Positions 50,989 to 64,000 of a DNA stretch of 64,000 nucleotides are shown piece by piece. Each line of letters starts with the position of its first letter. The first letter of the stretch is position 1. The translations under genes and the position numbers were made by a program. The DNA comes from Halomonas qaidamensis (GTDB lineage Bacteria > Pseudomonadota > Gammaproteobacteria > Pseudomonadales > Halomonadaceae). The stretch lies in NCBI RefSeq assembly GCF_025917315.1, contig NZ_CP080627.1, positions 3,534,001-3,598,000 on the forward strand, given 5' to 3'. The notes beneath the pieces are model-generated. The model searched no databases, had not been told where the DNA came from, and saw nothing but the letters and a program-made list of their open reading frames with translations.

Positions 50989-51837
50989 ATGACACTAGCC
51001 ATTGTGGCCACACGCGCCGGCGTGGGGCTGGAAGCACCCGCCGTGCATGTTGAGGTCCATTTAGCTAATGGGTTGCCTGGGCTAACACTGGTGGGTCTGC
51101 CAGAAACCGCCGTCAAAGAGAGCCGCGAGCGGGTGCGCAGCGCGCTCATCAATGCTGGGTTTGATTTCCCCAACACCAAACGTATTACCCTCAACCTTGC
51201 ACCCGCCGATCTGCCCAAAGAGGGCGGTCGTTTTGATTTACCGATAGCGCTCGGCATTCTGGCCGCCTCCGGCCAAATCCCAGTGGATGCGCTAGAAGGC
51301 ATGGAGTGCGCTGGTGAACTGGCGCTGGATGGCAAACTACGCGCCGTGCCTGGCGTACTGCCTTTTGCACTTGCCACACGGCGCGCCAATAAAGTACTGA
51401 TTATTCCCCGCGCTTGCGCTGATGAAGCTGCTCTAGCGGGTGATTTGCCCGTTCTACCAGCCGACACCCTTTGGCAGGTCGTTGCTCATTTGCTAGGGCA
51501 AGAGAAAATCCCGCCCCACCAACTGTCTGCCTCAGTGAGATCCACCGCTCCCATGGCCGACTTAGCCGACGTGCGCGGCCAGCACCAAGCGCGCCGCGCG
51601 TTGGAAGTAGCGGCCGCTGGTGGCCATAATTTGCTGTTAGCAGGGCCACCGGGCACCGGTAAGACCATGCTCGCTAGTCGCTTACCGGGCATTCTGCCAC
51701 CGCTTTCCGAAGACGATGCGTTGCAGGTGGCTGCCGTGCGTTCGGTATGCGGGCTGCCCCTGGAAGCAGACTGGGGCCAGCGGCCATTTCGCCAACCCCA
51801 CCACAGCGCCAGCGCCGCCGCGTTAGTGGGAGGAGGC
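50989..51837 (+). pseudogene. comM: comM/yifB (Mg-chelatase-like AAA ATPase), 5' part, interrupted
   Basis: ComM is a DNA helicase that helps branch migration in natural transformation; the family is about 500 residues. Here 283 codons are intact: the N-terminal ribosomal-S5-like domain (LPGLTLVGLPETAVKESRERV), Walker A AGPPGTGKT near residue 219 and FRQPHHSASAAALVGGG at the break. After that the frame continues only four codons, within inserted DNA, to a stop at 51850-51852. The remainder of the AAA domain is missing from the window, so the product should be inactive. The insertion is at the same protein position as the AbaR islands of Acinetobacter. Confidence 0.92.
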
Positions 51838-51890
51838 TGTCATTTACAGTAATTGTTGCGACAATTTAATAATAGCTGCGACATAATCTA
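51838..51890 (+). mobile_element. Left end of a Tn7/Tn402-superfamily-like element
   Basis: The junction begins TGTCATTTACAG, like the TGTCRTTTTCAG start of Tn402/Tn5053 ends. Two repeats with core TGCGACA follow at 51857 and 51877, 20 bp apart, as expected for transposase binding sites; the first lies in a palindrome AATTGTTGCGACAATT. The comM reading frame is cut exactly at this point. A 5-bp duplication (GAGGC, 51833-51837) is expected at the far end, outside the window. Transposase genes are not in the window. Confidence 0.75.
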
Positions 51891-52162
51891 AACAAGTAAT
51901 ACCCTTTAGCACTGAATTGGTAATCGCACTATCAAAGCTGCGGTAACGTCGAAGTCGCGACGGCAAGAAGAGAACAGTAAAACATCAGATAGTAAGTGCC
52001 CGTGTCACTCGAAAACGTAGCAGCCTCTCGACCCTAAAAAAGGAGGTGCAAGGCCCGCGCCTGCAAGGAATCCTAAAGCCGTATCATTTCGAACAAGAGT
52101 GCCCGGTTTGAAAAACCGGGCACTCTCATCAAAGACGTGGCATTCAAGTCGGGATTTAAACG
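51891..52162. other. Noncoding left border region of the island with hairpins
   Basis: This gap of about 270 bp holds no supported gene. It contains an imperfect inverted repeat at about 52041-52080 and a perfect 14-bp stem with a 3-base loop at 52096-52126 (arm AGAGTGCCCGGTTT). There is no long T run after the hairpin, so it is not a standard terminator on either strand. A small RNA or element-specific structure is possible. Confidence 0.4.
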
Positions 52163-52384
52163 TTAATCATCTTCAACAAAGAGCTGGCCTGTTCCTGAGC
52201 AATGATGGCAAATATCTAAGGAAACCTCACCCTCACCATAACAAGTATGGCACTGTGCAAAAGGTTTATCCTCTTCAGGGTCGTAGCCAGTCCCAAAACA
52301 GTTTGGGCACTCAATGTCCACATCAGTGCCCTGACCACTGCATTCTCGACAAATAATCATTGAGTTATCGTAATTTAGGCTCAT
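52163..52384 (-). CDS. DnaJ-type zinc-finger protein (four CxxCxGxG)
   Basis: The 73-residue protein is essentially only the cysteine-rich zinc-binding region of DnaJ: four CxxCxGxG-type repeats at Cys12/15, 26/29, 45/48 and 59/62, which would bind two zinc ions. There is no J domain or substrate-binding domain. The ATG at 52384 has an AGGAGG site and overlaps the stop of the upstream gene by 4 bp, so it is translated with that gene. Similar stand-alone modules may bind proteins or nucleic acid; function here is unknown. Confidence 0.8.
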   Translation of the reverse strand: MSLNYDNSMIICRECSGQGTDVDIECPNCFGTGYDPEEDKPFAQCHTCYGEGEVSLDICHHCSGTGQLFVEDD

Positions 52385-53283
52385 GACGCATCCTCCTGCG
52401 GCACAAACCAATCACGATTAAGGTGAAAATCATCATTTTTATCGGACATAAATTTAGAGGACAAAATATACCGACCTGTAACGCAGCCTTCGTATAGGTT
52501 GAGCTCGACTCCTTCGTCGTTTACATCTAAGAAGTAGGAGGATTCGTCCCCTGCAACACGACACTTTATAAAGCATTCAATCGTGAACACCGACTCTCGC
52601 TTCAAAAGATCCCACTTCTGACGCATCTCATTGACAACTGGCAACATGTACACTTGGTTTTCATACTTCTTTTCCATGTCGCCCATATACCGGCTGGAAG
52701 CACAGATTGAGGCATATGATTGATATCCTAATCCCTGCGCCTCAACATCTAAAAGATTGAGAAACGATTTGAGTTCCTGAAAATTGGAAAATCCATGATG
52801 CTGCGAAAAATGATTAAGTCGTCCCGCTTTTCCAAGCGTAAAATACTTGCGGTCAGCCTCAAATGCTAAAGCAGCTTCTGCTAATTCAGTCCCATCAAGT
52901 CCAAATAACTTGAACTGCTCCAGCGTGAAAGGTTCATCCTCAATTTTGAGAACAAGACGACTGCCAGCAAAGAGTCTACTCTGTTGATCGGCATTGAACT
53001 TCGTGACATAAGCTCTGAACGCCTCAATTCGCGAAGCAACGGTTTTGGAATAAGGAGCATTATCGTTTACACGCTCCTTAATAAGCCGTTCATTGAACGG
53101 ATAGATCACAAATCCATGCAATGCAGAGAAGCACACATGTCGAGGATTGTGAGCATCGAAGCAAGAAGGATGTATCAACTGAGATGATGTGAGCTCAAGG
53201 AGACACTGAATAGGGGGAATGGTGCTGTAATTGGTATAGAACTCATCGTAACCGTAAGCGAGACTATCATTAGTTAAAGACAT
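52381..53283 (-). CDS. Unknown 300-residue island protein, operon with the zinc-finger protein
   Basis: I do not recognise this protein. It is 300 residues from the ATG at 53283 (GGAG site; longer frames lack one). It is soluble-looking and mixed alpha/beta, with no transmembrane helix or known catalytic motif. Aromatic-rich N-terminus (YDEFYTNYSTIPPIQ) and a C-terminal beta-rich part around FTIECFIKCRVAGDESSYF stand out. Its last codon overlaps the zinc-finger gene, which suggests a two-protein unit. It is close to the island end, a usual place for cargo such as defence genes, but that is inference. Confidence 0.65.
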   Translation of the reverse strand: MSLTNDSLAYGYDEFYTNYSTIPPIQCLLELTSSQLIHPSCFDAHNPRHVCFSALHGFVIYPFNERLIKERVNDNAPYSKTVASRIEAFRAYVTKFNADQQSRLFAGSRLVLKIEDEPFTLEQFKLFGLDGTELAEAALAFEADRKYFTLGKAGRLNHFSQHHGFSNFQELKSFLNLLDVEAQGLGYQSYASICASSRYMGDMEKKYENQVYMLPVVNEMRQKWDLLKRESVFTIECFIKCRVAGDESSYFLDVNDEGVELNLYEGCVTGRYILSSKFMSDKNDDFHLNRDWFVPQEDAS

Positions 53284-53352
53284 TTCTTTCTCCATACGAA
53301 AACAGCGCTCCCAGGGTGGGAACGACACAGTTTTAGCTGGAGCAAGTGTCCT

Positions 53353-53790
53353 TTGCAGCACCGATTGCTAAGAGTCTTTTTCAGCACCGATTGCTGGGAT
53401 GGCGTGCTATTTATCCGCCTTAACTCGAAGCCTACCACACCGCTTTTAAATATCAAATCCTGTTTACATCTAAGGTTGTACTCGTCTTTGGGCTGTACTG
53501 CAATATGTAGAAACCGCCTTCTGGTGATCCGTCTAAGCGGTGTGCGCAAGAGCTGGATGACCCGAGATACTAATGAAGCGCTTGGGGCAATCGGCAATGA
53601 TCCCCTACGCTTTCGATATCTGATTTTCTACAACACGGCCAAGAGCGTCGATGGTCAACAGGCAAATATTAGTGCTGCTGGCGTGATGGCTCGCTACTGA
53701 AGTACCAATTGCTCAGACGCTGCCGATGATATAAGAGCTGTGTTGCGGCGCTTTAATGATGAATTTGGTGCACTGATGCCAGAACCTTGA
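53353..53790 (+). pseudogene. Decayed plus-strand gene remnant
   Basis: A plus-strand frame runs from 53353 to a TGA near 53700 and continues in the same frame after it, through DDIRAVLRRFNDEFGALMPEP, to a stop at about 53790. A strong terminator follows 40 bp later. This looks like the 3' end of a former gene with an internal stop. I do not recognise the family. An opposite-strand frame of 107 codons overlaps it, so the coding strand is not certain. Confidence 0.35.
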
Positions 53791-53828
53791 TATGGGAAAC
53801 ACTGCCTTGGGCAACGTGGCCTTACCCA

Positions 53829-53855
53829 GCCCACCACGTGGTGGGCGTTTTTTTT
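53829..53855 (+). terminator. Rho-independent terminator
   Basis: The perfect palindrome GCCCACCACGTGGTGGGC is followed by G and eight T on the plus strand. It follows the decayed gene and would insulate the TnsE-like gene downstream. Confidence 0.85.
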
Positions 53856-54071
53856 GTTTCACCTTTACCAATATGTACCCAAAACCGGCATAGTTTGAGA
53901 CTGACTTCTCTTCTGGGACCTTTATATCTCGCCCGCTGCCATGGATACAGTTTAGCGTTGCCACTAACCAATCCACTCCATCAGCCGCCCTACTACTAGG
54001 TCGCTTTCTGGAATCGTTTGCTGCTCACTAAAGATAACGCTGTAACGGGACGCATCAAAAGATTAATCCCT

Positions 54072-54121
54072 TGTGCTAAACCATTAAGCCATTGCGAATT
54101 TTCAACAATTGCTGCGACAAT
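54072..54121 (+). repeat. Second transposon-end-like motif
   Basis: A TGT at 54072 is followed by TGCGA at 54093 and TGCGACAA at 54113, 20 bp apart, in the same orientation and nearly the same offsets as at the island end at 51838. AATTGCTGCGACAAT matches the end repeats closely. It lies just upstream of the TnsE-like gene. It may be a diverged end of a related element, or regulatory sites for its transposition protein. Confidence 0.5.
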
Positions 54122-54153
54122 GCCTATGTTGAGTTTACATAGAGCGTGAGCTT

Positions 54154-55929
54154 GTGACCGTTTCTCTCAAACAATGCAGAACCTTTAGCTTCCCGGATGG
54201 CACCCTTAAAAACGAAGCTGAGCGCTTGGTCGTTTGGTGGTATGGGCCTATCGAAAAAAATACCCGCTCAGAAAGCGTCCCTAAAATTTATGTATTTTTC
54301 AGGCCTATTGATCAAAATAACAATTTAGGGGACGTGACTGATCGAACAACGGTCTTAACACATGTCGGACTAATGAGGATCGGTTCCGTCTGGGAAAAGG
54401 GGGTGAGCAACTCTCGCATCGCGTTTGATGAGAGAACATTCCCCGTTTCATTTTCTCCAGGCGGCTGGCGGATAGTCTCTCTAGATGACTTACGCAAAGC
54501 AGGGCGCAGCCTCTATACCTCCTTTCATGATGAATACTATTTGCCACTGGACAGAGAGCAAAGATCGTACCTGATCGAATTTGACCTTCCAGATGGCAAA
54601 CACTTGCTCATCCCTTGCACAGAATTTTTTACTCGCGTTTACGGCCGATCTTCTGAAATCAAGCGAGTGCTCGCCACTTACCCTTGGGAAGAAGTCAAAA
54701 AACGTCTTTATCGACCGCTTAATGCGCCTGCCTCCCCAGGTACGTGGCCTGTCAAATTTACATATCGTGTTCATAAACACGATGCCATTTTCCTCGCGCA
54801 TATGCTGTACGATCCCTATGCGGAGCAGGCTGCCAGAAAAATTTATTCGCAGCTTGAAGCCCGTTTCCCCGAAGACAGGATACTTTTTGAGGCCACTCCT
54901 TGGTTTCAGGGAAGCGGGGAACTCTCTGTTTCTGGCGTTCCGATTGATGGTGGCGACACATTTCTAGGGTTACAGATATTAGGCTGTACGCAGCCCGACG
55001 GTGCCACGATCCATCGCGAAAGAGAGAAGTCAGCGACAGTATCAGCCGCCGATGGCGATGATGCTCCCACTCAATTTCCCTATCATCAGCTTCAAGACAT
55101 CCCCGATGTCATTGACCTGACGGATGATGAAGAGCCCGACCATGGCTCTTCTTGGCTAGACCTTACTGAGGACGAATTCGTTATTTTGGGTAAGCCTCGT
55201 GCCGTCTTGGATAAGCGCTATACCCGGAAAAACGTGCCCGATACACGAGGCGTCCCCATTCCTGGCGACGAAACGATTTTCTCCACCGGAGAGCCCTATG
55301 GGTCAGGTAAGGGAGTGGGACAAGCGTCTATTCACGCCCCCATTACACTAGAGTCGCAGGGCTTTCTACGTGATATGTGGAACGCGCTTCTTTACCTACA
55401 ATCGGCCTATCCGACGGCGATACATAGCATTAGCTGGTTTACCTTTGAAGACGGCTTCAGCACTTCCCCTGATCCTCGATTAATTAGCCTCGAACCCTTC
55501 GGAATAGACGATGATGTAGAAACGTCCGTGGTCAATTGGGTCTATATGGATACTCATACGAAGGTTCTTCGCGGTGTACTCGTTATCAAGGTGCATGTGT
55601 TAGATCAAGCGCTTTATCTCATGGAACTCCAGCGACGCCCTCCGAAGCCCAGAAAGGACGGTAGAGAGGAAGGGGCAAAACCTCCGTCCTACAAAGGTTT
55701 AGTATTCACGCTGGATCACCAAGGCAGCTTAGAACACTGGTTGCGCCAAGTGCTGTCTAACGTGCGGCACGTTGAAGGTGTCGTTCAAAAACTCGTTCGT
55801 CACTGCCCAGGTTTCGCCGATACATTCAAGCACCCGAAAGCCAAAAATGAGAACGTTCCCGGCGAAGCTTCCGTGCTGAATGCTTTTAGCAAGGTCGGTA
55901 TAATGCGAGCTGACCTAACAGGGCACTAG
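54154..55929 (+). CDS. TnsE-like transposition protein (tentative)
   Basis: The 591-residue protein resembles Tn7 TnsE in layout as I remember that family: an N-terminal beta-rich region, a KHLLIPCTEFFTRVYGRSSE block near residue 150, a helix-rich FLAHMLYDPYAEQAARKIY block, an acidic low-complexity linker (about 290-350) and a C-terminal domain with VHVLDQALYLMELQRRP and YKGLVFTLDHQGSLEHWL. TnsE directs Tn7 to replicating DNA such as conjugal plasmids. Start is GTG at 54154 with a weak site; no ATG fits. No tnsA, tnsB or tnsC lies beside it. Identification is by pattern only. Confidence 0.5.
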   Translation: MTVSLKQCRTFSFPDGTLKNEAERLVVWWYGPIEKNTRSESVPKIYVFFRPIDQNNNLGDVTDRTTVLTHVGLMRIGSVWEKGVSNSRIAFDERTFPVSFSPGGWRIVSLDDLRKAGRSLYTSFHDEYYLPLDREQRSYLIEFDLPDGKHLLIPCTEFFTRVYGRSSEIKRVLATYPWEEVKKRLYRPLNAPASPGTWPVKFTYRVHKHDAIFLAHMLYDPYAEQAARKIYSQLEARFPEDRILFEATPWFQGSGELSVSGVPIDGGDTFLGLQILGCTQPDGATIHREREKSATVSAADGDDAPTQFPYHQLQDIPDVIDLTDDEEPDHGSSWLDLTEDEFVILGKPRAVLDKRYTRKNVPDTRGVPIPGDETIFSTGEPYGSGKGVGQASIHAPITLESQGFLRDMWNALLYLQSAYPTAIHSISWFTFEDGFSTSPDPRLISLEPFGIDDDVETSVVNWVYMDTHTKVLRGVLVIKVHVLDQALYLMELQRRPPKPRKDGREEGAKPPSYKGLVFTLDHQGSLEHWLRQVLSNVRHVEGVVQKLVRHCPGFADTFKHPKAKNENVPGEASVLNAFSKVGIMRADLTGH

Positions 55930-55945
55930 CTATATGAGGCACGTT

Positions 55946-56053
55946 ATGAATAAAGCCAGTATAGCGGCAAAGACAACCGGACTGAGCAATCGAAAGTTGC
56001 TCATTAATCGCTTTTGGCGCTTTGCGACTAGCATTCAGGACAGCTCAGACTGA
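55946..56053 (+). CDS. Possible small protein or leader (35 residues)
   Basis: A short frame with a good GAGG site six bases before its ATG follows the TnsE-like gene by 16 bp. The peptide is basic (NRKLLINRFWRF). A perfect 6-bp hairpin (GAGCAA / TTGCTC) lies inside it near 55985-56003. It may be a real small gene or just leader sequence of the next gene, which starts 50 bp later. Confidence 0.3.
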   Translation: MNKASIAAKTTGLSNRKLLINRFWRFATSIQDSSD

Positions 56054-56102
56054 CACAGCGCTAGACAATTCATCAAAAATTCAAACTGATAGGGCGATTA
56101 TA

Positions 56103-56798
56103 ATGGGTGACTTATACATCTCTTCTGTAGAAAAGGAAGCCTTAAAAAACATCGATTCCGACGAGCTAGACCTAGCCATCAGAGAGTGTGTCCGAAGCGT
56201 AGAGCCAAGTCAGCTCTACCGATTTAATTTAGAAAGTTGCGGCTTATATGTTTCAAACAAGTTAAGAGACTTTCAAAATTCAATTGATTCACACAGTCGG
56301 GCCAAGTCTTCTAAAAAACGTGATGAAACAGATTACTTAATGCGGCGGGCTGCTGACGATCTAGCACATGCGGTTCAGCAGATGCAGCAACGGATGGAAG
56401 AAGAAGAGAAAGACAACCTGCTGTTTCAAGTCGATGACCGTATCCTCCAACCCTTTCATTACAGTGATCGTCTGGAAGTGCGACTTGGGTACCAATGGCG
56501 TAAAAATACGGCGGATGATTGGACATATGGCACCATCACGTTCCTCTACACACCTGATCTTAGCCCCGATTACAGCTTTCCATTACCTAAGCGAAAGCCC
56601 AGTGCTTCGAAACTGGCACAGGAGCGTCAAGAAAAACTACGGCGTGAATGGGAACACCTTAAATTGTTAAGCCTTCACTCCCTAAGAAATTTTTTCAGAG
56701 AGGGAGGCGTCGGTAGTGACATCCCTAAAACCTACCATGTGACATTAGATACCTATGGTCGCGGGCTCAATAACTTCAGCGCGAATTTTTGGCGCTAA
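56103..56798 (+). CDS. Unknown coiled-coil-containing protein
   Basis: I do not recognise this 231-residue protein. The region about 75-110 is highly charged and helical (AVQQMQQRMEEEEKDN) and likely coiled coil. A beta-rich central part (LEVRLGYQWRKN, WTYGTITFLYTPDL) follows, then another helix-rich stretch about 160-195. No transmembrane segment. The ATG at 56103 has an AGGG site. It may be cotranscribed with the TnsE-like gene 173 bp upstream, with no clear terminator between, so a partnership is possible. Confidence 0.6.
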   Translation: MGDLYISSVEKEALKNIDSDELDLAIRECVRSVEPSQLYRFNLESCGLYVSNKLRDFQNSIDSHSRAKSSKKRDETDYLMRRAADDLAHAVQQMQQRMEEEEKDNLLFQVDDRILQPFHYSDRLEVRLGYQWRKNTADDWTYGTITFLYTPDLSPDYSFPLPKRKPSASKLAQERQEKLRREWEHLKLLSLHSLRNFFREGGVGSDIPKTYHVTLDTYGRGLNNFSANFWR

Positions 56799-57042
56799 AG
56801 CCCCCTGTGAGGCAATGGTAATTTGGCTTTTCTTACACCGTGCAAAACCAGGCTCTGTCTGAAAAGTGCCTGCGCTAGACAATACGGCGTTAAAAATTGG
56901 CTCAGAATACTCATTTACGTACATCAGGGACTGTTTTTTATCCTATGCTGTCTAGCAAAGAAGAATAAGTGAATACAAAACCTATACCGCCGTGACTCAT
57001 CTAACATTCGACTCCTCAAGAACTTACTAATGGTAATGAGAT

Positions 57043-57255
57043 ATGCTTAGTGCTGATGACTCAAAGCAGGAAATTACAATCGCCATCTGGAGGGCGGCTA
57101 TAGCGCTGTTTGATGGGGAACGAACTGCAGCGGACAAGTGGTTACACAGTGAAGCCATTGGGCTAGGTTGGAAGCGTCCCATTGATGTTATGCAGGAGGA
57201 CGCTCAGCAGGTGCTGGATCTGATTACGAGGATAGACAGAGGCGTTTACACATAA
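57043..57255 (+). CDS. Orphan MbcA/ParS/Xre-type antitoxin C-terminal domain (DUF2384)
   Basis: The 70-residue protein matches the toxin-binding C-terminal domain of Xre/MbcA/ParS antitoxins, with ALFDGERTAADKWLHSEAIGLGW, then RPIDVM and a C-terminal RIDRGVYT. Full antitoxins are longer and have a helix-turn-helix; that part is absent here. No RES or other partner toxin is next to it. It may be a fragment or a stand-alone decoy antitoxin. Confidence 0.7.
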   Translation: MLSADDSKQEITIAIWRAAIALFDGERTAADKWLHSEAIGLGWKRPIDVMQEDAQQVLDLITRIDRGVYT

Positions 57256-57490
57256 CCTCGCTATTCTGCGGTGACTTGATCATGGTTTTTAGCCGCTTCC
57301 AGTAATTCTGCTTAGGAGTTGGATCATTTTCAGGATAGCTATTGATGTCTTTATGCCTTAACTCGAAAGATGCCTATTCCATTTTCAGTGTGTTACCGCC
57401 CTATGTTGCACCACCTTTTCTAACCCTGGACAACCGACCAACTACTAAATCACCAAATACCTTAAATATCATAAGCTTATTTAATTATCT
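57256..57490. other. Gap without recognised gene
   Basis: This A+T-rich gap between the DUF2384 gene and the convergent small gene shows no open frame of note, RNA gene or clear terminator. Confidence 0.5.
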
Positions 57491-57757
57491 TCAATTATCT
57501 TTGAAAGGATAATTGCGTACGAGATCTGAGCAATCTGATTCGTTTTCCAGCGCCGATAATCGATCTTTCAACATTTCACGAATTACCTTCCCTATTGCAA
57601 ACCGCTCTTCCTGCGTTAGGCATATGTTGACGTTAGCAGTGGACACACTCAACTGTGAGGGTTGCCATTGCTGGTCGAGTGCGTCCCGGGTGTCCTTTAT
57701 AGCCTCATCTAATCCCATGCCGCCCAAGCCTGCGAGGATGTTCTCGTGTCGCATCAT
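57491..57757 (-). CDS. Small hypothetical protein
   Basis: An 88-residue protein (from the ATG at 57757; GAGG site about 9 bp upstream) with a helical C-terminus (EERFAIGKVIREMLKDRLSALEN). I do not recognise it. It is divergent from the frameshifted gene at 57863, and the 105 bp between them should hold both promoters; a TATAAT at 57824-57829 points to the right. Confidence 0.45.
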   Translation of the reverse strand: MMRHENILAGLGGMGLDEAIKDTRDALDQQWQPSQLSVSTANVNICLTQEERFAIGKVIREMLKDRLSALENESDCSDLVRNYPFKDN

Positions 57758-57862
57758 GGCCACTCACCTCTTGTTCATACTTGTTTAACGTAGTGATAAC
57801 CGTTGATTAACTATGTTTAAAGCTATAATAGTGTTTACCCTAATATAGACAACCTTTTAGCC

Positions 57863-58089
57863 ATGGCTCTCCGCAAAATCAGCGATCTAAACCCGTATTC
57901 ACAGGGGATAACGTAATCGAATGGCAATCGCCGAGCGGAACACGATACCGCTATGAGCGCGACCGCTGCGCCGTTGGTCAGGAAATAATACCTGGCAGCG
58001 AGACTTACGACTGGCACGTTCTGGCACAGAGCGATGTCACCCATGCCAAACGCCGCGTGTTTGAGCAAATCAACCAAGATGGATTCTAA
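57863..58089 (+). pseudogene. Small gene with a frameshift at a G run
   Basis: The frame from the ATG at 57863 (MALRKISDLNPYSQ) stops after 17 codons, but right after a GGGG at 57904-57907 the next frame continues with DNVIEWQSPSGTRYRYERD and ends with AKRRVFEQINQDGF at 58089. One extra G would join them into a coherent 75-residue protein. It may be a true mutation, a phase-variable tract or a sequencing error. Family unknown. Confidence 0.5.
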
Positions 58090-58509
58090 TACCCGCCCCA
58101 AGTCACTTATGATTTCCATATCCCTCTTCGCAAAGCGCTTATGTTTGAGAGCAGTGGTTTTAGCGATAAAGCTTACAGCTTGCCAGCGTCCTGCTTTATC
58201 CTGAATCCGACGGGGTAATTCTGCCTTCTAAGAGAAAGTGTTGAACTAGTCACTGGCCTTTATTGCTGCCAAATAGGTTAGCGACACACATGTCGCCTAC
58301 AACTTTTGGATTCACTGCATAGCGGATTGTTGTAAGCCATTGCTTACAGATACTGTGGTCGATTACTTACATAAACATAGTTTGATACACGCTAGGGTAT
58401 AGGTGTGACGCCCAGGATCGCCGCTTTAAGCATGCCGTATGCGTTACATCAGGGATGTTGAGTATTAGAAGTAAAGAGAGGCAGGTATGCCAGGGATGGC
58501 ATATCGATT
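58090..58509. other. 420-bp gap with an inverted repeat
   Basis: No gene is supported here. It contains a perfect dyad TGTAAGC-CATT-GCTTACA at 58331-58348, which could be an operator or a short RNA hairpin. The umuC stop lies at its right edge, on the minus strand. Confidence 0.5.
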
Positions 58510-59784
58510 CTATGTTTTAGCGACTGCAAGCTCTTCCCATCTGGTTGTATAGCGTGGTGTGCGGTGCTCGCAACGTAATTCCCAAGCGTTTTGTTTGCGG
58601 GGCATACCAAGACGGACGGTATTTTTTCCGTGCTCGCGATTAAGCTTGTCGAGGGTGGCCATCAATTTTTCATTACGAGCACGCTTCTCATCGCTGATCG
58701 GCTCCGCGAGCAACCCTAGTTGTTCATTGTCATGGTCGCACAGATCCATGAGCATAATCCCACATTTTTGGTACCAGATGTCTTTTTTAAAAACTCTCTC
58801 TAGACCTGCCATGGCAGATTTAATGAGCTCGCGGCTGTCATCGGTGGGGTGAGGTAGCGGAATTACTAAACGCTTACTGTAGCTCGGCAAATCTTGCCGA
58901 AAGCGATTGGTGTGAACAAACACCATCAACGCCTGCGCCAAGCCGTTTTGTCGTCGTAGCTTTTCACCAGCGCGTGAAGCGTGGGCTCGCAGGGCTTCAC
59001 GCAGATCGGTTTTGTCCGTCGTGAGTCGACCAAAAGAGCGGGACACCATGATCTGTTTTTTTGGTTGGCTCATGTCGTCCAGCGATATGCAGTTTTCGCC
59101 CCTCAACTCATAAACCAGACGTTCCATGACCACACTGAAATGGCGCCGTAAATGCTTAGGGCTGGCGGTGCGCAGCTGCCAAGCATTCTCTATGCCTAGG
59201 GTATGAAGCCGCGCTGCACTGCGACCTGCTACCCCCCATATCTCATTAACGGGTAGCTGTTCCAAGAAGGCACGCGTGTCGTTGCTATTAGGGTCCATCA
59301 TGGCCACGCCATTGAACATACTTTCTTTTTTAGCGCGATGGTTGGCAATTTTTGCCAATGTTTTGCTAGTGCTCAGGCCAACGCTAACTGGGATCCCTGT
59401 ATCCCGCCTTACTTGCTGTCGCATCACTTGGCATCGTTCTTCCAACGTGTCCGCTTCAAAGCCCTCAAACGATAGAAATGACTCGTCAATGCTATATACA
59501 TCAACGTGAGGCGTATGCTGTGAGAGAACGTCTGTTACGCGACTACTCATGTCACCGTAAAGCGCATAATTTGAGCTGAGCAAAGTGCATTTTCGGCGTA
59601 TATGGGGATCAATCTGATGGGCAGGCATTCCCATTGCCACACCTAAGCTTTTGATTTCTTGCGAACGCGCGACGACGCAACCGTCGTTATTCGACATAAC
59701 GCCGACAGCCTCGCCTTCGAGCCTCGGGTTAAAAACCCGCTCGCAGGATACATAGAAATTATTGCAGTCTACTAACCCAATCAT
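58510..59784 (-). CDS. umuC: DNA polymerase V catalytic subunit UmuC
   Basis: UmuC is a Y-family polymerase that copies past DNA lesions during the SOS response. The 424-residue protein is normal in length, with the first metal-binding Asp6 in LVDCNNFYVSCE and the catalytic pair Asp100-Glu101 in YSIDESFLSFEG. The C-terminal little-finger and UmuC-type tail are present. It overlaps umuD by 4 bp. Its place in a mobile island is common for plasmid and island-borne umuDC genes. Confidence 0.95.
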   Translation of the reverse strand: MIGLVDCNNFYVSCERVFNPRLEGEAVGVMSNNDGCVVARSQEIKSLGVAMGMPAHQIDPHIRRKCTLLSSNYALYGDMSSRVTDVLSQHTPHVDVYSIDESFLSFEGFEADTLEERCQVMRQQVRRDTGIPVSVGLSTSKTLAKIANHRAKKESMFNGVAMMDPNSNDTRAFLEQLPVNEIWGVAGRSAARLHTLGIENAWQLRTASPKHLRRHFSVVMERLVYELRGENCISLDDMSQPKKQIMVSRSFGRLTTDKTDLREALRAHASRAGEKLRRQNGLAQALMVFVHTNRFRQDLPSYSKRLVIPLPHPTDDSRELIKSAMAGLERVFKKDIWYQKCGIMLMDLCDHDNEQLGLLAEPISDEKRARNEKLMATLDKLNREHGKNTVRLGMPRKQNAWELRCEHRTPRYTTRWEELAVAKT

Positions 59785-60230
59785 ATGGCGAAACCGGGTG
59801 CTAGCGAACTGATGCTATGAGTCACCACCCCCCAATTGTGACAATCATGTCCAGAGAGGGGAATTGGCTTAAACTCTGGGTTAGAAGCCACCAGATACGG
59901 CCGACTGCCCATAATGCTTAGTTTCTTACATGTCAGCTCGCCGTCAACGCTCATGATCACTATATGTCCCGGCTGAGGGTTGAGGGACCGATCGACAATT
60001 AACAGCGCATTATCTTTAATGCCATCGTCTTCCATGGAAGTGCCTTTAGCGCGTAAAAAGAACGTTGCGCTAGGGTGCTTAATCAGATGGGCAATAAGAT
60101 CTAATTCAACCTCAATATAATCGTCGGCGGGACTGGGAAAACCAGCTCGGACTTCACCGGCAGCTAAAGGTAGCCGGAGCGGTCGAGCCATGGTGTCTAC
60201 GCGCCCGAGGATGGTGAAATGCATACTCAT
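59781..60230 (-). CDS. umuD: UmuD (self-cleaving subunit of DNA polymerase V)
   Basis: UmuD cuts itself in the presence of RecA filaments to activate polymerase V. The 149-residue protein has a cleavage site Ala29-Gly30 (in EVRAGFPSPADDY), the nucleophile Ser65 in KGTSMEDDG and the Lys pair at 102-103 (ELTCKKL). It starts at 60230, overlapping the small upstream gene by 4 bp. It belongs to the operon with a LexA box at 60470-60485. Confidence 0.94.
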   Translation of the reverse strand: MSMHFTILGRVDTMARPLRLPLAAGEVRAGFPSPADDYIEVELDLIAHLIKHPSATFFLRAKGTSMEDDGIKDNALLIVDRSLNPQPGHIVIMSVDGELTCKKLSIMGSRPYLVASNPEFKPIPLSGHDCHNWGVVTHSISSLAPGFAI

Positions 60231-60451
60231 GCCATGCTCTCCAGGACACGCCATGTGCTAGGTATATGCCCCTCAGTATTTTCAAGAGGTGTGAGCGGCA
60301 CGTCCTTTTCTGCACACATGCCCGTCAACAGTCGCGCCAATCCCTCCGTCAAATCATCAGGTAGGAGATGAAGTTCTCCGATGATAGCTGGCTGAACGTG
60401 TGGGCTACTGACTGAACGCGGGCCAAGCTGTAGATAGGTTTTCATTGACAT
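60227..60451 (-). CDS. Small leading gene of the umuDC operon
   Basis: This 74-residue protein is translated just before UmuD: its stop overlaps the umuD start by 4 bp and its own ATG has an AAGGAGG site. I do not recognise the family. It lies directly behind the LexA box, so it is induced with umuDC. It may regulate or assist polymerase V. Confidence 0.65.
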   Translation of the reverse strand: MSMKTYLQLGPRSVSSPHVQPAIIGELHLLPDDLTEGLARLLTGMCAEKDVPLTPLENTEGHIPSTWRVLESMA

Positions 60452-60469
60452 AAGTGCCTCCTTAAATAG

Positions 60470-60485
60470 CTGTCTTTATATACAG
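60470..60485 (-). promoter_or_regulatory. LexA box of the umuDC operon
   Basis: CTGTCTTTATATACAG fits the CTGT-N8-ACAG SOS box. It lies about 19 bp upstream of the first gene of the small gene-umuD-umuC operon, so LexA would block it until DNA damage. Confidence 0.88.
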
Positions 60486-60656
60486 CACCTGGGAGAGACA
60501 ATAAGCGATGAACCCGGTTAATCGCAAGCACTCTTCTTAATTCGTTGGCCTGAACGTGTTGGTAAAACCAGCATACTTGGGTGGTTGCTGGGCGGAGGCA
60601 CCGCGTTTTGGTGCGTATGCTGACGCGCATGGCCAATTCTCGACTATCCTGCAGCT

Positions 60657-61313
60657 ATGTGCGGTCGATTTGCTTTATTCACCCCCGTAAGTGAGCTGAC
60701 CAACAAGGTCGGTGCAGTTATGCCAGAGCGTGAGATACACCCGCGCTACAATGTGGCACCTGGTACCTGGGTCGCGAGCATACGGCAGGCTTCTGAAGAT
60801 TCAGCTCCTACGCTTGAGGAAATGTGGTGGGGATTTCGTCCATCGTGGGCTAAAGGAAAAGGCACGCAGCCTATAAATGCCCGTGTAGAAACCGTGGCGA
60901 CGAATAACTATTTCAAATCGGCATTTGCTAAGCACCGGTGCCTTGTACTCGCTGACGGGTGGTACGAGTGGATCAAGAACTCATCCCCCAAACAGCCTCA
61001 TTACCTGTGCCGACGGGACAGAGAGCCATTGTACTTCGCGGCTGTTTACGCAGAACGGGATGATGGAGGTCTAGGATGTGCCATTCTGACCGAGCAGGCC
61101 CGAGGCAGTGCTGCCGATGTGCACGACAGGATGCCGTTGATTTTGGACGACGATAGTCTTGAACACTGGCTTGCTCCTGACCTGACGCATAAAGAGACAA
61201 TCCACAGCATGGTGCGGCATATCGATGCGGGACTCGTCGAACATTGGTCGGTTAGCACAGCTGTTAACAAACCTTCCGAGGGCCAAGGTGACGAGCTGAT
61301 CAATCCTCTCTAG
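60657..61313 (+). CDS. SRAP-family abasic-site protein (YedK/HMCES-like)
   Basis: SRAP proteins form a crosslink to abasic sites in single-stranded DNA and protect it. The 218-residue protein has all key residues: catalytic Cys2 after the initiator Met (MCGRF), Asn32 in PRYNVAPG, Glu104 in GWYEW and His156 in VHDRMP. It is divergent from umuDC, with the LexA box between them. YedK in E. coli is not essential; here it may work with polymerase V during damage. The ribosome binding site is poor. Confidence 0.93.
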   Translation: MCGRFALFTPVSELTNKVGAVMPEREIHPRYNVAPGTWVASIRQASEDSAPTLEEMWWGFRPSWAKGKGTQPINARVETVATNNYFKSAFAKHRCLVLADGWYEWIKNSSPKQPHYLCRRDREPLYFAAVYAERDDGGLGCAILTEQARGSAADVHDRMPLILDDDSLEHWLAPDLTHKETIHSMVRHIDAGLVEHWSVSTAVNKPSEGQGDELINPL

Positions 61314-61374
61314 CGTTCCTCTGCTCAAGGTTGGCAGATTTTCACCAGCCCTTTTTCTATCCGCTAGGCTGGAT

Positions 61375-61788
61375 TTGGTTAATGAGCTGCACCAAGGCAC
61401 ATTTTCAGACGAGGCGAGCTTAGTACTGGCACCAAACGGCTTTGAGGCTGAGCAGTTACGCAGTGGATACGTGGTCATGACACTGGTGGAGCAGAGCGCT
61501 CTGGAACAATTATTCGCTGACTCGCGCAGCGTAGATGATATGTTGATGAACTTGAAGCCTAGTGCGCGCGCCATCGATGTATTTGCATACGATGATGGTT
61601 ACTTGGGGCCAACATTAAAGGCTGCTTTTCACCTGCCTGGCCAGCAATTGAACAGGTTGAGGAATAAGGTGGAGCAAGCCCGGTTGAGGATTTTTTACGT
61701 AACGGAGTTATGTAGTCAACTACGCGCTTTAGAGTGGGGCATGATAGGGATAAAGACTTGGGCGGCAATTGCATGCCTAGTAACTTGA
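61375..61788 (+). CDS. Hypothetical protein, TTG start or fragment
   Basis: A 137-codon frame with a coherent protein (SLVLAPNGFEAEQLRSG, VIDVFAYDDGYLGP-like block, ending CSQLRALEWGMIGIKTW). No ATG occurs before codon 35, and the frame stays open upstream into the SRAP gene region; the TTG at 61375 is the only plausible start. It may be a truncated gene. Not recognised. Its end overlaps the convergent membrane protein gene by 12 bp. Confidence 0.45.
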   Translation: MVNELHQGTFSDEASLVLAPNGFEAEQLRSGYVVMTLVEQSALEQLFADSRSVDDMLMNLKPSARAIDVFAYDDGYLGPTLKAAFHLPGQQLNRLRNKVEQARLRIFYVTELCSQLRALEWGMIGIKTWAAIACLVT

Positions 61789-62406
61789 ATTTTCACCCAC
61801 AAGCTCGGCAATAACGGAAGAAATAAATGCCCCTTTTTTATCTTCAGGCATTCCTTGGTAAATTACTCCACCTACTATGACGGCAAAAATTATAGCGGCA
61901 AAGACACCAGAGAAACCATTCCATTGCCACTTTACAACTCTCGGAAGAGCTTTTTCACATGGAGTTTGTTTAACCTTTGCAACAAACTCTGTCACAGCTT
62001 TTTTGCGCTCCTTGTCTATCTCTTTCTTTTGCTGACCTTTCAATCGGCTAAGCTCATCAGCTTGTCTTCTTCGATCCTCAGTGCGCTTTTTTTCAACCGA
62101 GGCAACTTGATGTTCATATTCTTCCCTTACCTCCTCTTCAATAGCCTCAGACAATTCCTGCAACAGGATCCCAGCTCTCTCACGATAACCCTCTAGCATA
62201 GACCGGCTATTCACAGCGTTTTGGTGAAATGTACTGACCTCAGCAACTATCTCTTCTTCCGATAAACCTTGCTCACGCTTTGTTTTAGCAATATCGGCTT
62301 TATTTGCTTTATACAATGCGTAAGCCACCAAGCCTTGAATGTCAGCACTTCTATCTTCTACAAGCTCATCGAAAACCCATCTCTTCCCTTGCGAACTATG
62401 CTCCAT
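61777..62406 (-). CDS. Membrane-anchored coiled-coil protein of a two-gene operon
   Basis: The 209-residue protein has an N-terminal segment with ADIQGLVAYALYKANKADIAK (about 21-41), a long charged helix likely to be coiled coil (about 75-145) and a C-terminal transmembrane helix (about 168-187), with no signal peptide. I have seen similar layouts in island and prophage proteins, but know no function. It follows a 68-residue gene by 22 bp. The region is notably A+T-rich. A small partner with a membrane effector is the layout of many toxin-antitoxin and abortive-infection systems, which is inference. Confidence 0.65.
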   Translation of the reverse strand: MEHSSQGKRWVFDELVEDRSADIQGLVAYALYKANKADIAKTKREQGLSEEEIVAEVSTFHQNAVNSRSMLEGYRERAGILLQELSEAIEEEVREEYEHQVASVEKKRTEDRRRQADELSRLKGQQKKEIDKERKKAVTEFVAKVKQTPCEKALPRVVKWQWNGFSGVFAAIIFAVIVGGVIYQGMPEDKKGAFISSVIAELVGENSSY

Positions 62407-62428
62407 CTTAACACCTTGTTATTTACTA

Positions 62429-62635
62429 TTATTTGGAGGAGCATTTTTCAGAAGCATTCAGAATAAGCTTAGAGAAGCGATTTACAGCTTTCTGAATCTC
62501 CTCATCAGAAAACTTGTGAGACCTCTTTTCGCTAGGTATTGTTCGGTAATTTACTATTTCCACATTTTTCACTGCCTTGTTAACCACTGCTTTGTGTTGC
62601 TTTTCCGTCATTTTGGGCAGTACTGTCACATTCAT
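62429..62635 (-). CDS. Small partner gene of the coiled-coil membrane protein
   Basis: This 68-residue basic protein has no recognised domain; the C-terminal half is helical (FSDEEIQKAVNRFSKLI). It has an AGAGGTG site and precedes the membrane protein gene by 22 bp on the same strand. It may control or neutralise that protein. Confidence 0.55.
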   Translation of the reverse strand: MNVTVLPKMTEKQHKAVVNKAVKNVEIVNYRTIPSEKRSHKFSDEEIQKAVNRFSKLILNASEKCSSK

Positions 62636-62845
62636 AACATCACCTCTTGTAGGAGGTTGCAGCTACATAACACCATAGCCAAATTTTGCTGAGTATACAC
62701 ACGTGCTTTCTTTAGTAAAGCAGACAATTTAAGAAATGTCAGCCCTCCGGGCTCTCACCTCCGATTCTATGCTCACAAACCTCGTAGTGACTGCATGTCG
62801 ACCCTGGACGAGTAACTGACAATTCATTTTTAGGAGGTTTAGCCC

Positions 62846-63124
62846 ATGCGAACTGTTCCAATTTTCAAAGATGATAATAGCCAGATCGTCTACCTGCCCG
62901 CTGATATGGTATATGAAGGGGTTAGAAAACTTAAGATTACTCAGGCAAAGGAAGTAATTACTCTGCGTCCTGTTCGTTCATCCTGGATATCCTATCCTGA
63001 GCTGCCTAAGGCTGATGCCGAGTTCCTTCATCAGCGTCCCGTAATCGTGGATGCTAAAGACAGGAGCGACCTTCCACACAGCAGCTCGTCAAAGTCCTCA
63101 AAATACCCCGATGGCAATTGTTGA
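62846..63124 (+). CDS. VapB-like (AbrB-fold) antitoxin, orphan
   Basis: The first 70 residues match VapB-type antitoxins with a swapped-hairpin DNA-binding fold: TVPIFKDDNSQIVYLPADM, then ITLRPVRSSW and PELPKADAEFL. The last 20 residues are Ser-rich and unusual for VapB, perhaps the result of a frameshift near the end. A strong AGGAGG site precedes the ATG. No VapC toxin (PIN domain) follows; the next frames look like parts of other genes. Confidence 0.72.
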   Translation: MRTVPIFKDDNSQIVYLPADMVYEGVRKLKITQAKEVITLRPVRSSWISYPELPKADAEFLHQRPVIVDAKDRSDLPHSSSSKSSKYPDGNC

Positions 63125-63534
63125 ATTATATCCCAGGTGCACGTAACGGCGGCATAATTGAGAGCAAAGTGCTGGAGAATTGGATAACGAAGGCCCGAAC
63201 TCTCGCCAATGCGGAGCATATTGAAGATATCGCCGACTACTGGATCGGAAAAATGCTTTCGGCATCGCCGATGGCGGGCGACGGTGTCTGTACGATAAAG
63301 CCAAAAAGTAACATGATCGATCTATTCCACAGCAATGCAATGATCGAAGGCTTCAAAATTGGCAAATCTAATCGCCGTGGTGTAACGACGCGTATGACGA
63401 GCGATGGTGGTGCCCTAGAATGCGAGGAGGAAATGAAGTACCGCGCCTGGATTGGCAGGTTTAGGGTTCCTTCAGTAGTTACAAAGTTAAGGTCAAGAGT
63501 TCGCGATTCAATGCGTATGATCGGACAGGCCTGA
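63118..63534 (+). CDS. C-terminal fragment-like protein
   Basis: A 138-codon frame starts at TTG 63118, overlapping the VapB-like gene. The protein from about residue 20 (LENWITKARTLANAEHIED, then YWIGKMLSASP, RRGVTTRMTSDGG) looks like the C-terminal part of a larger island-borne protein of unknown function, so the N-terminal part may have been lost. Confidence that it is expressed is low. Confidence 0.4.
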   Translation: MLNYIPGARNGGIIESKVLENWITKARTLANAEHIEDIADYWIGKMLSASPMAGDGVCTIKPKSNMIDLFHSNAMIEGFKIGKSNRRGVTTRMTSDGGALECEEEMKYRAWIGRFRVPSVVTKLRSRVRDSMRMIGQA

Positions 63535-63598
63535 GTAATGGGAGTATCCGAAAATCACCGTTAATACTTACACGTTCGGCCCCTCCCGCTGGTTAGTA

Positions 63599-64000
63599 AT
63601 GCTAGGTTTGACACGCCCCTGGAAGCTGACTTTGAAGAGTGGTTCGATTCATCTCCAGCGTTCCAACAGGGTCTTCACATACCCCCTCATTAACCTTCAT
63701 GAGGCCAATCTGTCTGGCAAGTCCATACACGACGTTGTAAAGCTTCAGTTTTACAACGAGCCGTCCTCCATCGGCCTTCGAGGATTAGCCCGTGGAGATG
63801 GCCAGCGACTGTTGGACAGTCTTCGGGTTGCTACGGCTGCCGCTCTAGACCCATATGAGCACTGCCTACTTGACTGGGGCCAAACTCTCTCCCGTCGCCT
63901 CGAAATACATCGCTGGCTTGGAGTCCGTGAGTGGAGCGCAATCTGTCTAGAGCGTAACGACGCCCTCCCCATCAAAGACGGCCCCACATTAGGAAGTGTG
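63599..64000 (+). CDS. Probable HelD/UvrD-like helicase, N-terminal part (runs off window)
   Basis: A plus-strand frame is open from about 63540 past the window end; the ATG at 63599 is the first in frame. The visible part has SRWLVMLGLTRPWKLTL-like and LHLQR-type blocks then an IGLRGLARGDGQRLLDSL segment, resembling the accessory N-terminal domain of HelD (DNA helicase IV) proteins as I recall it. The helicase motifs would lie beyond the window. An ATG at 63538 is out of frame, so an N-terminal frameshift is also possible. Confidence 0.35.
   Translation, partial: MLGLTRPWKLTLKSGSIHLQRSNRVFTYPLINLHEANLSGKSIHDVVKLQFYNEPSSIGLRGLARGDGQRLLDSLRVATAAALDPYEHCLLDWGQTLSRRLEIHRWLGVREWSAICLERNDALPIKDGPTLGSV

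Follow-up and report, generated by a model that had tools for sequence, protein, structure and literature searches.

The window analyzed here is a stretch of 64,000 bp from Halomonas qaidamensis and corresponds to C1:3534001-3598000 of a 3.8 Mb genome in two contigs (C1 coordinate = window coordinate + 3534000). At position 51838 of the window the comM gene is broken by the left end of an element which we take, with very little doubt, to be a complete Tn7-like transposon of the Tn6022 type, inserted in comM and moving as proposed below. The comM half, the left end and the TnsE-like gene of the element are placed in the window as follows (E, expectation value; aa, amino acids).

50989..51837, + strand: first 283 codons of comM (its 5' half), including the Walker A motif; Pfam match PF13541, E 1.1e-43
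51833..51837, no strand: GAGGC, the 5-bp target-site duplication, in its left copy; its right copy is at C1:3634737-3634741
51838..64000, no strand: portion of the element inside the window
51838..51845, + strand: left terminal inverted repeat TGTCATTT, matched exactly by the right end's first 8 bases
51857..51863, + strand: first TnsB-like site of the left end, TGCGACA
51877..51883, + strand: second TnsB-like site of the left end, TGCGACA
54154..55929, + strand: TnsE-like protein (591 aa), encoded close to the left end on the strand opposite to tnsABC-tniQ-tnsF

The interrupted comM gene and the limits of the element

A first-pass annotation, made from the letters of the window, had described comM as intact for 283 codons and then broken, with foreign DNA opening TGTCATTTACAG and carrying TGCGACA repeats 20 bp apart. 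All of this is borne out by the sequence: the last native residues are ...SASAAALVGGG, with 51837 as the last base of the native frame, and the DNA that follows opens as described and contains TGCGACA at 51857 and 51877. From base 51838 the comM frame runs through four transposon-encoded codons into a stop (CHLQ*). The insertion separates codon 283 from codon 284, upstream of LFLDE and near the Walker B coding region. The remainder of comM, which the annotation had suggested looking for to the right, begins at C1:3634737, outside the window, and contains the sole Mg_chelatase_C match of the genome, 49 kb downstream of the window's comM half. Joined in silico, the two halves give a single 502-aa frame.

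Genome G154, which is labelled as the same species, carries an uninterrupted 502-aa comM that differs at 1 aa and 11 nt and is 100% identical to the window's 5' half across 283 aa, and it is without a TnsF match (one of 201 genomes searched; TnsF is treated below). The comM gene of G154 is a natural empty site, and since it is uninterrupted the insertion is not common to the whole species. A misassembly joining comM to some unrelated mobile element, conceivable in principle with any assembly, is exceedingly improbable here because both halves are carried on one 3.77-Mb contig, the joined frame is 502 aa long and the gene is intact in G154. Against a join also stand the 5-bp duplication and the Tn7-like breaks of comM in 10 of the 48 other genomes of the genus with a comM match.

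The right junction reads ...AATGACA/GAGGC/TCAAAG, which delimits the whole element to C1:3585838-3634736, or 48,899 bp. The 12 kb of cargo in the first-pass annotation is accordingly only the part within the window, while the inverted end and the GAGGC duplication that it proposed as checks were both found. Inverted TGT...ACA ends, a 5-bp duplication and several predicted TnsB-like sites per end (two at the left end; four at the right end, two of them with one mismatch) are the hallmarks of a Tn7-like element. Exact TGCGACA/TGTCGCA heptamers number 14 in 53,001 bp, and four exact plus two one-mismatch copies fall within approximately 135 bp of the ends; given this clustering, chance is not a serious rival explanation for the sites. 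The G+C content of the element is 48%, compared with 56% in the fetched flanks.

Transposition genes and proposed mechanism

The tnsA/B/C-like genes anticipated to the right were found outside the window, where the right end of the element encodes tnsA, tnsB, tnsC, tniQ and then a cysteine-rich tnsF. A TnsA endonuclease, a DDE TnsB (D250, D334 and E370 by motif) and a TnsC AAA+ ATPase sharing one operon characterize Tn7-like elements. In the same operon tniQ is followed by tnsF, the product of which has N-terminal zinc fingers, judged by invariant cysteines and homology to an Acinetobacter protein. In Tn6022-type elements the C-terminal portion of TnsF resembles a tyrosine recombinase, which may hold for this TnsF as well. 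The homology of the TnsE-like protein covers the C-terminal domain only, and an alignment against solved structures gave no relative by sequence up to E 1; its left-end position on the opposite strand is that of Tn6022-type elements. AjTn6022, an Acinetobacter Tn6022 of the backbone kind of AbaR islands, likewise has TnsA, TnsB, TnsC, TniQ and TnsF together, a TnsE-like gene encoded on the opposite strand close to the other end, a comM insertion and a target-site duplication (PMC10293859). In contrast to the Acinetobacter Tn6022, the window's element is 48.9 kb long with nameable cargo that is mostly phage defence and SOS-type genes, and its TnsF shares only 39% identity with the A. baumannii homologue.

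Tn402/Tn5053 elements carry TniA-TniB-TniQ and a resolvase, and no TnsA. Membership of TnsC in the Pfam TniB family and the presence of TniQ would suit such an element, lying in comM by accident. Of the "Tn7/Tn402-like" label of the first-pass annotation only the first half can be kept: with TnsA present and tnsF after tniQ in the same operon, the element is not Tn402-like. Accident fails as an explanation too, because 37 of 39 relatives use the same codon, and we regard this alternative as scarcely credible. The same holds for Tsy, a tyrosine recombinase element which also has a TnsF homologue for targeting comM and comM halves at its borders (PMC10293859). Unlike the element described here, Tsy uses a tyrosine recombinase mechanism with a helix-turn-helix protein and a catalytic TnsF-like protein and has no Tn7 genes. 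The DDE TnsB, TnsA, TnsC and TniQ at the right end, the inverted ends and the 5-bp duplication all speak against it, as does the lack of a Pfam tyrosine recombinase among the scanned proteins, which did not comprise every frame of the element.

For the Tn6022-type transposon the limits, the inverted ends, the duplication, the empty site, the genes present and the DDE motif residues of TnsB were observed directly, and a mechanism is proposed by analogy with AjTn6022. TnsB would bind the TGCGACA-type repeats at either end and join the ends to the target, with TnsA making the remaining cuts; TnsC would connect TnsA and TnsB to TniQ-TnsF, the target selector, whose TnsF would recognize the comM Walker B region. 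The insertion itself, after codon 283, duplicates 5 bp. The separate TnsE-like gene probably permits jumps to other DNA, such as plasmids. TnsF of Tn6022-type elements has been shown to target comM, loss of TnsA, TnsB, TnsC, TniQ or TnsF impaired transposition of AjTn6022, and in E. coli without a target plasmid 96.7% of AjTn6022 insertions were in comM (PMC10293859). The copy described here may still be mobile.

The host has presumably lost ComM function. One could alternatively imagine that split comM is still used, the 3' half receiving a start codon and an in-frame leader from the right end. There is an in-frame TTG 12 codons ahead of codon 284 in the window's element, an ATG approximately 43 codons upstream in some loci, and a comM frame open for at least 40 codons upstream in 12 of 39 named loci, compared with 0 of 39 and 6 of 39 for the other frames. 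Such a leader is, however, not conserved (median open length 15 codons over the 39 loci, many being stopped or without a start), and the terminal TGACA itself places stops in the other frames. We consider continued use very unlikely, and a leader peptide designed for fusion was dropped as a candidate on the same median and the frequent absence of starts.

Relatives of the element and breaks of comM in the genus

A relative of TnsF is encoded at 52 named loci. In 39 of these, from many phyla, the right end borders the comM 3' half; the gap between its terminal ACA and codon 284 is exactly five bases in 37 of them and is off by a base in L125 and L145. The hosts, as titled in their records, include Vreelandella/Halomonas, Kushneria, Cobetia, Acinetobacter, Pseudomonas, Marinobacter, Guyparkeria, Massilia, Gallionella, a Rhodospirillales bin, a Deltaproteobacteria bin and Methylacidimicrobium. 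Among the remaining 13 loci, five lack tnsA in the stretch, L139 stops 258 bases past tnsA, and seven (L114, L115, L117, L154, L156, L158 and L163) have sequence past tnsA without a comM match; in these seven either the element is inserted elsewhere or the comM junction was lost. It had been supposed that AbaR islands share this point of comM, and the identical 3' junction in nine Acinetobacter loci (L138, L140-L143, L147-L149 and L155) agrees with this for the genus, although these are not AbaR of A. baumannii itself. Use of the target across distant genera, also foreseen in the first-pass annotation, is true and already known from the insertion of the Acinetobacter Tn6022 into E. coli comM (PMC10293859).

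Tn6022-type elements of Vreelandella/Halomonas, Kushneria and Cobetia (for example V. titanicae BH1, L113) use the same comM codon and have similar ends, differing in size and cargo, with L113 at approximately 11.9 kb. Compared with 14 such elements, the window's element is 93-95% identical in TnsC, 86-88% in TnsB and 84-85% in TnsA, and to most of them 64-69% in TniQ and 68-71% in TnsF, with lower values to G193; the closest TnsF (93%) is that of V. olivaria TC10 (L112). We claim no exchange of a TniQ-TnsF module from these numbers: TniQ and TnsF are likewise the most variable proteins when the other elements are compared, and faster evolution is explanation enough. The TnsE-like protein (window 54154-55929) is 93-94% identical to that of some relatives, such as L113, with TnsA at 84% and TnsF at approximately 70% (L008:11115-17112); the higher TnsE-like identity suggests that the left and right ends may not share one history.

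In the survey of 201 genomes a TnsF match was encoded by 21, some matches being partial or with stops. Copies with internal stops (L032 in G176 C2, L027 in G033, L033 in G182 and L034 in G069) are probably remains of older elements. Broken comM was tallied by hand in the window's genus alone, judged by the open frame, with a comM match in 49 of the 50 genomes sampled. It is broken in 14 of the 49, the window's own genome included, and by their junctions 11 of these breaks are Tn7-like (G000, G088, G121, G144, G156, G160, G164, G174, G176, G198 and G200). For G121 only the 5' junction was read; in G176 comM is broken a second time, at codon 216, and the Tn7-like junction was read at the 3' half only. 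A perfect 5-bp duplication flanks eight of nine other elements with both junctions fetched, the ninth, G088b, having one mismatch. The elements of G160 and G083 (L086, L087, L099 and L100) form a deeply diverged lineage of TnsF transposons with ends opening TGTGAATT; they hit the same comM base with a TnsF only 28% and a TnsB 43% identical.

The other three breaks (G080, G158 and G184) have a serine recombinase-like frame approximately 120 bp further on; the Pfam run, on the G158 protein only, points to a resolvase-type recombinase. Large serine recombinase elements also split comM in the host family, at codons ~322-335 (L095, L101, L102, L104 and L105), and in L101 the recombinase has a neighbour weakly like a Rep_1 replication protein (E 0.0008, below the cut-off). 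The idea of comM as a new serine recombinase target was rejected, since magnesium chelatase genes are already published as a target (PMC10083194, PMC9203015); magnesium chelatase/ATP-dependent protease genes are the target of 12.4% of predicted site-specific integrases (PMC10083194).

Cargo and biological meaning

The cargo that can be named is mostly phage defence and SOS-type genes and reads, from left to right:

58510..59784, - strand: UmuC-type Y-family polymerase (PF00817, E 1.9e-33)
59781..60254, - strand: UmuD-type S24 peptidase (PF00717, E 2.9e-27)
60657..61313, + strand: SRAP, SOS response associated peptidase (PF02586, E 1.1e-60)
63599..64000, + strand: start of the 889-aa frame of a UvrD-family helicase, continuing past the window (PF00580, E 2.5e-46, later 709 aa)
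C1:3600436-3603867 (L007:2436-5867), - strand: 1,143-aa protein with no Pfam or PADLOC match at E 0.001
C1:3604526-3608183: Gabija GajB and GajA (best PADLOC E 1.1e-239 and 5.3e-270)
C1:3609776-3612412: type III-A retron pair (PRTase E 1.8e-112, RT E 1.9e-166)
Rightward of the retron: AbiEi gene with a short AbiEii-like neighbour
After AbiEi: DUF5131 gene with two genes of the PDC-M30A kind
After the DUF5131 group: WYL protein
Rightmost: type III methyltransferase and a ResIII-type partner with a weak PADLOC match

The 1,143-aa protein gene, which lies 3'-to-3' with the UvrD-type helicase gene and adjoins Gabija, is a candidate for an undescribed defence gene. Defence genes are well described as Tn7-like cargo (PMC8649781). 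No RNA or tRNA genes were found in the element at Rfam gathering scores or by ARAGORN (L006-L008), and no drug-resistance genes were noticed among the cargo, for which no resistance library was searched.

The insertion is real, and comM targeting by this type of element is already known. Halomonas and Pseudomonas are not named in the main text of PMC10293859, and among the literature matches listed no title or abstract start dealt with comM insertions in Halomonas. The novelty lies in the host lineage, of the Halomonas/Vreelandella group, in an element delimited at both ends and matched by its empty site, and in the tally of comM breaks across the genus. The work adds a clean case from a halophile lineage, natural empty site included, shows how frequent the event is in the host genus (14 of 49 genomes) and offers a defence-rich cargo; the picture of how such elements work is unchanged and the interest is modest. 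It is a tentative idea, and rather less probable than otherwise, that comM of the Halomonas group is a standing slot for exchangeable defence islands which unrelated integration systems keep entering (two deeply diverged TnsF lineages sharing one codon, with large serine recombinases approximately 120 bp downstream), where each newcomer, by breaking ComM, would hinder its own curing by transformation. The results fit published ideas of comM as a preferred, and perhaps useful, target of mobile elements (PMC10293859, PMC11472951).
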